Shown here piece after piece: positions 40,164-50,852 of a stretch of DNA of 64,000 bases (position 1 is its first letter; each line of letters starts with the position of its first letter). A model generated the notes under the pieces. That model made no database searches. It was not told where the DNA came from and saw nothing but the letters and a program-made list of their open reading frames with translations. A program made the translations under genes and the position numbers. The stretch lies in assembly GCA_947630505.1 (NCBI GenBank), contig CANRHV010000003.1:17533-81532 (forward strand). Direction: 5' to 3'. This stretch comes from an uncultured Monoglobus sp. (GTDB lineage Bacteria; Bacillota; Clostridia; Monoglobales; Monoglobaceae).

Positions 40164-41099
40164 TTAATTGCAGCCGCAGCCGCAACCGTTTCCCTCGCAG
40201 TAGGGATTGCCGGTCGTGTTATCGCCGGCGGGAGGGAAGAACTCGTCAAGCGGGAAGCGTATAGTGTTGAACAGATCGCAGGGATCGTCGTCGCCCGCAG
40301 CCGCGCAGACCTTTTCGGGAACACAGAAGTCGCACGCGTCGATCATCAGCGAGACGTCTCTCTCTATTCTGGCGATCGTGAACAGGCCGAAGCTTACCCG
40401 GACCTGTCTCGCGTCGTCATCGACCACAAGATCATCGCCGTAGCAGGAGCAGATGTTCTCGGGTATCGCGGCGGCATTGCAGCATCCGCAGCAGTTCTCT
40501 TTGTCTACCAGCTTGGCGCCGAGAGCGATGGGATCGACCGCCTCAACCGTGACGGTGGGCATGTTGGTGGACTTTCTGACTCTTTCGATCTCATCGCCGG
40601 GCTGCATTGTCGAGGTGAAGGTCTTGGTCCTGCCCTCGCTGCCGTAGAGGATTATGCGCTTGTCGTAGGTGGTGAGACCGTGTATCTCCTCGGGAGCGCC
40701 GAGGCCGGTGAACACCTCGAGAGTGACGTCGATAAAGAATTTTATGTCGATCGAGTAGTAGCCCGAGTTATAGAGCAGAGGCTCGATATCGGTGTATACC
40801 CAGATGATCTCAGCCTTCTTGAGCTTAACGTTTATCGCGTCCTCAATAAGCTGCTGGTTCTCGGCGGTGAAATACACTCTCGAATCCGCGACGCAGTTCC
40901 TCTCTCTGCACGAGTCATAGATCTTCTTGGCGCTGACGCATATGGGATCCGAGAAATCCTCGCGGCGCCTCTCGCTTGTTTCGGCCGCCTCAGCGGCGCA
41001 GTCCTCGGCGATGCCCGCCGCGTCAACATCAGTGTCAACGTCGTTGTCACAGCCGCAGCCGCAGCCGTTTTGTCTGCCGTAAGTATTTTTATAACTCAT
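40164..41099 (-). CDS. Cys-rich hypothetical protein with GCGCGC motifs at both termini
   Basis: MSYKNTYGRQNGCGCGCDNDVD ... GNPYCEGNGCGCGCN; SD aggaggtttgatt-ATG on the minus strand. Confidence 0.75.
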   Translation of the reverse strand: MSYKNTYGRQNGCGCGCDNDVDTDVDAAGIAEDCAAEAAETSERRREDFSDPICVSAKKIYDSCRERNCVADSRVYFTAENQQLIEDAINVKLKKAEIIWVYTDIEPLLYNSGYYSIDIKFFIDVTLEVFTGLGAPEEIHGLTTYDKRIILYGSEGRTKTFTSTMQPGDEIERVRKSTNMPTVTVEAVDPIALGAKLVDKENCCGCCNAAAIPENICSCYGDDLVVDDDARQVRVSFGLFTIARIERDVSLMIDACDFCVPEKVCAAAGDDDPCDLFNTIRFPLDEFFPPAGDNTTGNPYCEGNGCGCGCN

Positions 41100-41198
41100 A
41101 ATCAAACCTCCTGAATATTTCGCGGCCTTTGCCGCTTTCAATATATTCTATGGCCGGTATGAAAATTTGTTACAAATAATCGAATATGATAAATTATA

Positions 41199-41636
41199 TC
41201 ATATCACATAGTCTTGGCCCGAGTATTCACGGTTTCTGTCTATGATATCCTGAATGGTTATCCCGTCAAGATACTCGGCGATCACGTCTCTCAGGCCCTC
41301 CCAGACAAACAAAGTCTTGCACGAGGCTTGTCTCTCGCATTGATTGGGCTTTTGATCAAGACATGCGATCGGGGCGATGCTGCCCTCGGTGATCCTGAGT
41401 ATTTCCCCGATGGTGTATTCCGACGGCTGCCTCGACAGCTTGTATCCGCCCTTAAAACCTCTGCTCGAGCGCAGGATCCCAGTGTTGTTGAACAGGGATA
41501 TGATCTGCTCCAGATATTTTTTTGAAATTCCCTGGCGCTCCGCTATGTCCTTGAGTGAAATAAATCCGTCGTGAGTATGCTCCGCCATATCCAGAAGCAT
41601 CCTGACCGCGTATCTACCCTTTGTTGAAATCTTCAA
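41199..41636 (-). CDS. Rrf2-family transcriptional regulator
   Basis: MKISTKGRYAVRMLLDMAEHTHDGFISLKDIAERQGISKKYLEQIISLFNNTGILRSSRGFKGGYKLSRQPSEYTIGEILRITEGSIAPI. Confidence 0.95.
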   Translation of the reverse strand: MKISTKGRYAVRMLLDMAEHTHDGFISLKDIAERQGISKKYLEQIISLFNNTGILRSSRGFKGGYKLSRQPSEYTIGEILRITEGSIAPIACLDQKPNQCERQASCKTLFVWEGLRDVIAEYLDGITIQDIIDRNREYSGQDYVI

Positions 41637-41755: not shown

Positions 41756-41784
41756 TTGACAAACATATCATTATGTGCTATTAT
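41756..41784 (+). promoter_or_regulatory. sigma-A promoter of the metY transcript
   Basis: TTGACA - 17 nt - TATTAT. Confidence 0.8.
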
Positions 41785-41830
41785 CTAAAACATACTAAAT
41801 CTATAGGAATAGTGACAAAAGGAGAAAACC

Positions 41831-41899
41831 ATGAGACAAGAATATGTGAGATTGTTTACAAAGCTTCTCAGATTCAACTGGCGGTTCGGGCGAATGTGA
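41831..41899 (+). CDS. 22-aa leader peptide ORF upstream of metY
   Basis: ATG AGA CAA ... CGA ATG TGA = MRQEYVRLFTKLLRFNWRFGRM; SD aaaggag about 7 nt upstream; sits ~40 nt downstream of a consensus promoter. Not in the supplied ORF track because of its length. Confidence 0.65.
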   Translation: MRQEYVRLFTKLLRFNWRFGRM

Positions 41900-41963
41900 G
41901 TTTTTCAGCAAACCGATTTGAGATTTTTTAAAATAAAATATATTATAGAAGGAGATATTTATT

Positions 41964-43256
41964 ATGGCAAATATAAAAGATACATCAAAATGGGGATTTG
42001 AAACAAAACAGCTGCATATCGGACAGGAGAGCCCCGATCCCGCCAGCGACGCGAGAGCGGTTCCGATCTATCAGACCACATCGTACGTTTTCAAAAATTC
42101 CGACCACGCGGCGGCGCGCTTCGGACTTGCCGATCCCGGCAATATCTACGGCAGGCTGACAAACTCGACGCAGGACGTTTTCGAGCGCAGAATTGCGGCG
42201 CTTGAGGGCGGCGTCGCGGCGCTCGCCACGGCCTCGGGCGCGGCGGCCATCACCTACACGATACAGAATCTGGCGCAGGCGGGCGACCATATAGTTTCGC
42301 AAAAGACCATATACGGCGGCACGTATAATCTTCTTGCGCACACTCTGCCGCAGTACGGCGTTGACACCACCTTTGTTGACATACATAATTTAGAGGAAGT
42401 TAAAAACGCGGTCAAGCCCAACACCAAGGCGATATTTATTGAAACTTTGGGCAACCCCAACAGCGATATTGCGGATATCGACGCGGTGGCCGAGATAGCT
42501 CACGCGAACAAAATTCCGCTGGTTATAGACAACACCTTCGGCACGCCTTATCTTATTCGCCCGATCGAGCACGGCGCGGACATAGTCGTTCATTCCGCCA
42601 CAAAGTTTATCGGCGGCCACGGCACCACGCTCGGCGGCGTTATAGTTGACAGCGGAAAATTTGACTGGGAGGCGAGCGGCAAGTTCCCGTCGTTGACCGA
42701 GCCGAACCCCAGTTATCACGGCATCTCGTTCACGAAAGCCGTTGGCGAGGCCGCGTTTGTGACAAAAATACGCGCCATACTGCTCCGCGACACCGGAGCC
42801 ACGCTTGCGCCGTTCAGCGCGTTCCTGCTGCTCCAGGGCCTTGAGACCCTGTCGCTCAGAGTGGAGCGTCACGCCGAAAACACAAAAAAGGTCGTTGAGT
42901 ATCTGAGCAATCATCCCAAGGTTTTGAAGGTCAACCATCCGTCGCTGCCCGATCATCCCGACCATGAGCTTTACAAAAAGTATTTCCCGAACGGCGGAGG
43001 CTCGATATTCACGTTCGACATAGACGGCGGCGAAAAGGACGCGCGCGACTTTATCGACAGACTGCAGATATTCTCGCTGCTTGCCAACGTGGCCGACGTT
43101 AAGTCGCTGGTTATCCATCCGGCAAGCACCACCCACTCGCAGCTGACCGCCGAGGAGCTGCTCGATCAGGGAATCAATCCCAACACGATCAGGCTCTCGA
43201 TCGGAACCGAAAGCGTTGACGACATAATTGCGGACCTTGAGCAGGCCTTTGAATAA
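41964..43256 (+). CDS. metY: O-acetylhomoserine aminocarboxypropyltransferase / cysteine synthase family
   Basis: WGFETKQLHIGQESPDPASDARAVPIYQTTSYVFKNSDHAAARFGLADPGNIYGRLTNSTQDVFERRIAALEGGVAALATASG; HSATKFIGGHGTTLGG. Confidence 0.95.
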   Translation: MANIKDTSKWGFETKQLHIGQESPDPASDARAVPIYQTTSYVFKNSDHAAARFGLADPGNIYGRLTNSTQDVFERRIAALEGGVAALATASGAAAITYTIQNLAQAGDHIVSQKTIYGGTYNLLAHTLPQYGVDTTFVDIHNLEEVKNAVKPNTKAIFIETLGNPNSDIADIDAVAEIAHANKIPLVIDNTFGTPYLIRPIEHGADIVVHSATKFIGGHGTTLGGVIVDSGKFDWEASGKFPSLTEPNPSYHGISFTKAVGEAAFVTKIRAILLRDTGATLAPFSAFLLLQGLETLSLRVERHAENTKKVVEYLSNHPKVLKVNHPSLPDHPDHELYKKYFPNGGGSIFTFDIDGGEKDARDFIDRLQIFSLLANVADVKSLVIHPASTTHSQLTAEELLDQGINPNTIRLSIGTESVDDIIADLEQAFE

Positions 43257-45767: not shown

Positions 45768-45885
45768 TATTTTCTTCAGGGCAGGGTGAAAGTCCCTACC
45801 GGCGGTAAAGCCCGCGAGCCATTTTGGCATGATTCGGTGAGATTCCGAAGCCGACGGTCAAAGTCCGGATGTGAGAAGAAACTCA
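45768..45885 (+). ncRNA. FMN riboswitch (RFN element)
   Basis: TTCTTCAGGGCAGGGTGAAAGTCCCTACCGGCGGTAAAGCCCGCGAGCC...GATTCGGTGAGATTCCGAAGCCGACGGTCAAAGTCCGGATGTGAGAAGAA matches the RFN consensus. Confidence 0.97.
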
Positions 45886-45984: not shown

Positions 45985-47079
45985 ATGGAAGAAAAGTACA
46001 TGCGCCGCGCGCTGGAGCTGGCGGCAAAGGGCAGGGGAAGAACCTCTCCCAATCCGATGGTCGGCTGCGTTATAGTGAAGGACGGCAGAATAATAGGCGA
46101 GGGGTATCACAAAAAATACGGCGGCCCCCACGCCGAACGGAACGCGCTGGCGGCCTGCTCGGAGGACCCGAGCGGAGCCGATATGTACGTGACGCTGGAG
46201 CCCTGCTGTCACTTCGGAAAGACGCCGCCCTGCGCCGACGCGGTGATCGAGAGCGGCATAAAAAGAGTGTTTATCGGCAGTTTTGATCCGAACCCCAAGG
46301 TGGGCGGAGGCGGCGCCGAAAGGCTGCGCCAAAACGGAGTTGAGGTCGTCGTGGGAATGCTTGAAAAAGAGTGTCTTGAGCTCAACAAAATCTTTATGCG
46401 CTACATCACAAGCGGCGAGCCTTACGTGATGCTCAAATACGCCATGACCGCCGACGGAAAAATCGCGACGGCGAGCGGAAGATCAAAATGGATAACCGGA
46501 GAAAAGGCCCGCGAGGACACCCACCGCGACAGAAACGCGTATTCGGCTATCTTAGTCGGAGTGAACACGGTTATAGCCGACGATCCCGAGCTGACCTGCC
46601 GCGCAGAGGACGGAACAAACCCGACGCGCGTCGTGTGCGACAGCGCACTTATGACTCCGCTCGGTTCAAAGCTCGTGAGCACAGCCAAAGAAATACCGAC
46701 CGTGATCGCGACCTGCTCCAAAAGCGAGAAGCGCGCCGAGCCGTATATTAAAGCGGGCTGCCGCGTGATCTGCGCCGCGGGCAGGGACGGACGCGTCAAC
46801 CTGAAACTGCTTATGAAAAAGCTCGGCGAGCTCAAGATCGACAGCGTTATTATCGAGGGCGGCGGAGAGATCGCCTGGTCGGCGTTGAGCGCGGGCATAG
46901 TCGATTATGTCAAGTGCTACATTGCGCCAAAGATTTTCGGAGGCGCGGGCGCGAAAACTCCCGTGGGCGGCGTCGGGGTTGCCGAGCCGTCGGAAGCGTT
47001 TCGAATAAGCGAACCGAAGATCAGCCGCATCGGCGATGATTTTCTGGTAGAGGGGGAGATCAAGTGTTCACGGGGATAA
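45985..47079 (+). CDS. ribD: bifunctional riboflavin deaminase/reductase RibD
   Basis: MRRALELAAKGRGRTSPNPMVGCVIVKDGRIIGEGYHKKYGGPHAERNALAAC...TLEPCCHFGKTPPCADAVIESGIKRV. Confidence 0.96.
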   Translation: MEEKYMRRALELAAKGRGRTSPNPMVGCVIVKDGRIIGEGYHKKYGGPHAERNALAACSEDPSGADMYVTLEPCCHFGKTPPCADAVIESGIKRVFIGSFDPNPKVGGGGAERLRQNGVEVVVGMLEKECLELNKIFMRYITSGEPYVMLKYAMTADGKIATASGRSKWITGEKAREDTHRDRNAYSAILVGVNTVIADDPELTCRAEDGTNPTRVVCDSALMTPLGSKLVSTAKEIPTVIATCSKSEKRAEPYIKAGCRVICAAGRDGRVNLKLLMKKLGELKIDSVIIEGGGEIAWSALSAGIVDYVKCYIAPKIFGGAGAKTPVGGVGVAEPSEAFRISEPKISRIGDDFLVEGEIKCSRG

Positions 47080-50704: not shown

Positions 50705-50852
50705 TATAAATGGACTTTGAGGTGGACAATTTCGTGGCATCCACACGCCGAAGGTACTGACAGGGGAAACCCGAGAGATGCAGGGGTAAGCCACGCCTGC
50801 CAAAGTTCGATTTATTCCGAGGGACCGCCTACCGGCGGTCCCTGTTTTTTTA
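50705..50852 (+). ncRNA. unassigned structured RNA candidate ending in an intrinsic terminator
   Basis: Closing stem GGACTTTG...CAAAGTTC; internal GGG-gaaa-CCC, GTGG-cat-CCAC and GCAGG...CCTGC stems; terminator GGGACCGCCtaccGGCGGTCCC-TGTTTTTTT. Confidence 0.5.
50820..50852 (+). terminator. intrinsic terminator of the ncRNA candidate
   Basis: AGGGACCGCC-tacc-GGCGGTCCCTGTTTTTTT. Confidence 0.85.

Follow-up and report, generated by a model that had tools for sequence, protein, structure and literature searches.

A conserved leader peptide upstream of metY in gut Clostridia, very likely a switch for the supply of cysteine and methionine that works through the ribosome

Introduction

In low-GC Gram-positive bacteria, the genes for methionine and cysteine are thought to be controlled mainly via SAM riboswitches, T-boxes, and CymR. 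TnaC, dependent on tryptophan, is an example of a ligand-sensing arrest peptide. Like TnaC and SpeFL, the leaders described here are short peptides with conserved C-terminal residues near the proposed arrest point, and by analogy, their form in which the terminal G-R-M is directly followed by a stop codon (GRM-stop) would place that codon in the A site; however, the peptides are unrelated in sequence to TnaC and SpeFL and belong to another target pathway. The translation attenuators of erm genes (ermCL type) also employ a leader ORF, and the pairing of a pause site with the Shine-Dalgarno (SD) sequence of the next gene recurs in several of our lineages. In contrast to the erm systems, there is no antibiotic link, the targets are genes of sulfur acquisition, and the peptide is unrelated.

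In mycobacteria, cys operons have polycysteine leader ORFs, which were predicted earlier (PMC1262725) and are described as cysteine-responsive attenuators (Canestrari et al. 2020, as cited in PMC13236596). The Clostridia leaders resemble them as small ORFs placed directly before sulfur genes, in the Cys codons that many members carry near the stop, and, in part, in translation attenuation as the putative output. However, the mycobacterial ORFs are leaderless and defined by their Cys runs, whereas those of Clostridia, a different phylum, possess an SD and conserve N-[FWY]-R-x-G-R-M, the Cys run being optional. Classical amino-acid attenuators (trp, his), represented in Firmicutes by the hisS leader (PMC2965389), share with our leaders the leader ORF, the terminator present in a few members, and the Met/Cys-rich tandem leader of some loci, but what they conserve is runs of the regulated codon, whereas our leaders conserve a peptide motif in which a single Arg codon is fixed. 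Arrest peptides related to Sec/YidC, including CliM of Clostridia, monitor protein localization (PMC10987492, PMC13183943); they are likewise leader peptides with a conserved C-terminal motif and a patchy distribution, yet they precede protein-localization genes, and many carry RAPP-like motifs.

The subject of the present analysis is a 22-aa ORF upstream of metY in a stretch of 64,000 nucleotides from an uncultured Monoglobus sp., referred to as the window. This ORF almost certainly encodes a genuine leader peptide that is conserved and belongs to a sulfur regulon, and it is very probably a ribosome-based switch for the supply of cysteine and methionine rather than a chance frame. Sequence comparison places it in a previously unnamed leader family that extends across many gut Clostridia. 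If this reading is true, a ribosome-based sulfur sensor would be added before metY, metQ, and genes of sulfate/sulfonate uptake in these bacteria, and the control of metY would be explained where no riboswitch is found. Furthermore, the fixed synonymous Arg codon (CGA) would permit a direct test of what a slow codon contributes to a natural switch, while the occurrence of either a Cys codon or a stop after the same motif would constitute a natural experiment on the change of input in such sensors.

The leader ORF upstream of metY

The leader ORF (41831–41899, forward strand) encodes MRQEYVRLFTKLLRFNWRFGRM, starting with ATG at 41831 and ending with TGA at 41897–41899. On the same strand, it is preceded by the SD AAAGGAG (41818–41824) and by a sigma-A promoter, TTGACA-17-TATTAT (41756–41784), with 11/12 matches and an extended −10 TG. 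The peptide contains five Arg and no Cys, with Met at both ends only, and closes with the C-terminal motif N-W-R-F-G-R-M-stop (41876–41899, forward strand), which is found again before sulfur genes in many genera. A gap of 64 nt (41900–41963) separates the leader stop from the ATG of metY at 41964. The metY gene (41964–43256, forward strand), the proposed target, encodes an O-acetylhomoserine aminocarboxypropyltransferase of 430 aa (TIGR01326, E 3e-194; PF01053) and has its own SD, GAAGGAG, at 41948–41954. A preliminary description had reported the ORF, its SD, the 64-nt distance, the promoter, and the composition of the peptide; when re-read from the sequence and its translation, each of these agrees.

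Conservation of the reading frame

The leader peptide is identical (100%) in three Monoglobus congeners and 95% identical in a fourth, in which one residue is changed, and every Monoglobus copy is located directly upstream of metY. Six codons vary across the five Monoglobus genomes, five of them synonymously, while only about 20% of random changes in the leader ORF, or 30% if transitions only are considered, are expected to be synonymous (P about 0.002 to 0.01, binomial estimate). The preliminary description had held that loss of the frame in relatives would refute the leader and had proposed a search for synonymous bias; the frame proved to be conserved and the bias to be present. In a species-wide scan, the genomes closest to the window are those of uncultured Monoglobus, and their samples carry the label Lapin (rabbit).

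In other genera, the corresponding position is occupied by homologues that share this C-terminus. The distant ones share the C-terminus only (MSEYIGHFAYLIRSNWRNGRM, MNIYHKDKWFYLLRHNWRFGRM, MEVKLLHNRFYLLRHNWRYGRM), ending in N-[FWY]-R-x-G-R-M followed by a stop or Cys, so that the N-terminal half varies freely and the last eight or so residues are constrained. As far as sequence comparison can tell, the functional part of the leader is this C-terminal motif together with the invariant CGA-AUG, not the overall cationic and amphipathic character of the peptide. Readthrough of the leader TGA was rejected because the frame beyond the stop is not conserved even between Monoglobus species. Within the window's own genome, matches to the region upstream of the leader are promoter-like stretches, located mostly before tRNA genes.

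Distribution and target genes

A first DNA pattern, N-W-R-x-G-R-M plus stop, recovered leaders in other families of Clostridia. The strict pattern, N-[aromatic]-R-x-G-R-M, matched 33/391 Clostridia genomes, and the reversed pattern, used as a control, matched none; all 33 matches were directly upstream of a sulfur gene, namely, metY (29), metQ (2), sbp (1), or an ssuA-like gene (1). Among 399 genomes drawn from across the phylum, only the window itself and one match outside Clostridia (L232) were returned; the latter was dismissed as chance since it lies inside an unrelated gene. The species-wide scan, comprising about 85,000 species genomes, gave 28 matches, 22 of which are genuine leaders, followed by metY (17), sbp (2), ssuA (1), metQ (1), and an ABC ATPase of the nitrate/taurine/sulfonate class (1); the other six fall within unrelated genes and were rejected as chance. 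Taken over many families, the genes found after the motif are metY, sbp, metQ, and ssuA. The MetY proteins beside the leaders with Trp in the aromatic position (W-type) are 82–86% identical across families; therefore, the leader-metY unit has probably moved horizontally, and the family counts of leaders are not fully independent.

No family was found for the window peptide in Pfam and NCBIfam or for ten of its homologues in NCBIfam, and Rfam gave no match in the window leader. A text search with the motif strings returned unrelated words only, and literature searches gave no description of the family. The initial view of an unannotated leader of no described family before a sulfur gene thus stands: the leader would resemble known attenuators in its working, yet it is outside any described family by the tests made.

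Codon constraint and the position after the motif

The CGA-ATG dicodon of the window leader (41891–41896, forward strand) is the proposed pause site. In an unbiased scoring, in which N-[FWY]-R-x-G was required and the codons that follow were left free, the next codon was CGA in 35/35 leaders and the one after it was ATG in 35/35, with one unrelated match on the complementary strand. At the remaining Arg positions of these leaders, AGA or AGG predominates, with CGA accounting for about 8% in a count that takes in some in-frame codons upstream of the leader start; therefore, the peptide and one codon are both fixed. In addition, CGAATGTG is the commonest 8-mer among 123 Clostridia regions upstream of metY (47/123), ranking above the promoter hexamers, and in nearly every case it forms the in-frame R-M-(Cys or stop) of a small ORF. 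In Salmonella, a his-leader assay showed slow reading of CGA (PMC4046918), and if this behavior carries over from Salmonella to Clostridia, as we infer, it would fit a programmed pause.

About half of the leaders have Cys after R-M, frequently followed by further Cys (RMCCCR, RMCLCRC, RMCHC), and Cys is the commonest residue after the motif (18/90 tail residues) as well as the first residue of most tails. The leaders without Cys at this position, including that of the window, have a stop instead, usually TGA; since the motif is the same, the window form represents the Cys-to-stop version of the leaders of its relatives. A run of Cys codons near the stop, the criterion of the mycobacterial type, is absent from the window peptide.

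Tandem leaders

In nine loci (L035, L036, L037, L080, L085, L174, L184, L193, and L233), a second small ORF with runs of Met/Cys codons (MMCMCMMC and similar) is located 200–250 nt upstream of the GRM leader, which has the GRM-stop form in all nine, and a terminator-like hairpin lies between the two leaders in L085 and L233. The upstream ORF resembles a Met/Cys attenuator of the classical kind, placed in series with the GRM leader, and its presence suggests that the GRM leader may add a different signal or level of control. No upstream Met/Cys-rich leader is present at the window locus. A different type of metY leader, long and Met/Cys-rich (e.g., MSHGNTWPMNMYEMADSMCCMQDMMCFSCTPCSEMRM), was observed at L118 (G180), L128 (G330), L099 (G202), and L116 (G299); these leaders end in or run through CGA-ATG and have hairpins downstream.

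Candidate outputs

Base pairing of the metY SD and start with the stretch that opens at the R-M codons is striking in families f12, f40, f32, f47, and f15 and is also seen in G013, another genome of the window's family. Over 20 families, the pairing of the pause site with the metY SD region has a mean of −9.3 kcal/mol within a genome vs −7.0 kcal/mol between families (permutation 0.0005). Many individual leaders, the window among them, lack this pairing, and sequestration of the metY SD is neither visible nor supported in the window's lineage (G000, z +1.0). Clear intrinsic terminators follow the leader in G281, G202, and G299, and others occur in some further genomes. Between the window leader and metY, a canonical terminator was not found; a weak candidate hairpin, CTCAGATTC : GAATGTGAG followed by TTTTT (41867–41905, forward strand), overlaps the end of the leader ORF, and its z of −0.83 vs synonymous shuffles is not significant alone. 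The W-type leaders, which are related sequences, have an internal hairpin of moderate strength (mean z −1.1), and their consensus fold gave no structure. Neither SD release nor a terminator is convincing as the output in the window's own lineage.

Proposed mechanism and alternative explanations

The leader is, on present evidence, most likely a cis-acting attenuator, in which ribosome pausing at R-M-(Cys/stop) would control the next gene. That a pause at this site is the working principle, whether it responds to charged tRNA or to a ligand, appears probable; that charged tRNA is what the leader peptide senses is the best explanation, held with slightly better than even confidence. Under this explanation, the slow CGA codon and the nascent motif would jointly pause the ribosome while the AUG or the next Cys/stop codon is in the A site, and a shortage of charged Met- or Cys-tRNA would lengthen the pause. 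The paused ribosome would keep the mRNA around the pause site unpaired and would thus make the SD of the gene that follows accessible, which amounts to translation attenuation; a few lineages would alter a terminator decision instead. Either event would switch on sulfur acquisition. With TGA at the position of the Cys codon, the AUG or the termination step would therefore be the sensed event in the window, where the candidate signals may be Met-tRNA or a ligand acting via the nascent chain. It counts against starvation sensing that a regulatory Cys codon is missing from the GRM-stop form, which has a single Met codon besides the start, an unusual makeup for such a sensor; moreover, a second tRNA sensor would be redundant in the nine GRM-stop loci, given their upstream Met/Cys-rich leader.

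A ligand-sensing arrest peptide is a possible though clearly less probable reading, in which nascent N-[FWY]-R-x-G-R-M would bind Met, SAM, Cys, O-acetylserine, or O-acetylhomoserine as sulfur metabolite in the exit tunnel and, like TnaC with tryptophan, would prevent either release of the peptide at the stop codon or its transfer to Cys. About seven residues near the peptidyl-transferase center are conserved while synonymous variation is free, a peptide-level conservation that plain tRNA-starvation attenuation would not need; the stop codon directly after Met would fit arrest at termination, and the co-occurring Met/Cys-codon-rich leader suggests a separate signal. However, a pure ligand sensor would have no use for the Cys codons that about half of the leaders carry after the motif, and the invariant CGA indicates a codon effect besides the peptide effect. 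A broader proposal is put forward just as tentatively: a new family of nascent-peptide sulfur sensors, whose motif chain with CGA-AUG would stall the ribosome at Cys/stop when a sulfur metabolite is sensed, which would employ SD release or a terminator as exchangeable outputs, and which would act in some loci as the second of tandem leaders, after a Met/Cys-codon attenuator.

Explanations that dispense with a pause fare considerably worse. Conservation of CGAATGTG as nucleotides, be it a protein or small-RNA site or part of a structure, with the frame secondary, would agree with its top rank among 8-mers of metY leaders and with the pairing seen in many lineages, where its partner is the metY SD or a set of upstream codons, but this reading is improbable: upstream variation consists of synonymous third positions and F/W/Y exchange, the frame, SD, and stop are all kept with the element in frame as R-M, and the TG after CGAATG becomes TA, CA, or CG in some leaders. 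It is still less probable that the leader serves merely as a translation enhancer that loads ribosomes reinitiating at metY, the peptide sequence being incidental; although the motif and the start of metY are separated by a fairly uniform distance, mostly 60–95 nt, the gap of 64 nt is long for reinitiation, and the conserved C-terminal residues and the fixed CGA-AUG would be left unexplained. The shortness of the frame could point to a chance ORF without function, a reading of negligible probability that conservation, genomic association, and codon constraint all contradict.

Neighboring regulatory elements

An Rrf2-family transcriptional regulator (CymR/IscR-like; Pfam PF02082 Rrf2, E 1.6e-38) is encoded divergently from metY at 41199–41636 on the reverse strand and probably controls the metY promoter. 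The operator-like element ACATACTAAATCTATAGGAAT (41790–41810, forward strand), for which 0.05 matches are expected in the window at up to 3 mismatches, is probably an Rrf2/CymR-type site by its sequence. A similar element occurs before metY in relatives, and the window's own genome has a copy with 3 mismatches ahead of sbp (L240, G000:C54:1805-1825); this sbp locus combines the operator-like site with the sulfate-binding protein gene and has no GRM leader. The Rrf2 gene is adjoined by a gene on the reverse strand (40164–41141) for a protein with Cys/Gly-rich ends (GCGCGC).

Among the loci scanned, no riboswitch or T-box recognizable by Rfam was detected before a leader-bearing metY, and SAM riboswitches preceded metY only in two other, leader-less genomes. 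Elsewhere in the window, an FMN riboswitch (45768–45884) is located before riboflavin genes (ribD-like ORF at 45985), and a skipping-rope RNA (RF02924), a member of an orphan RNA family, is found at 50712–50808.
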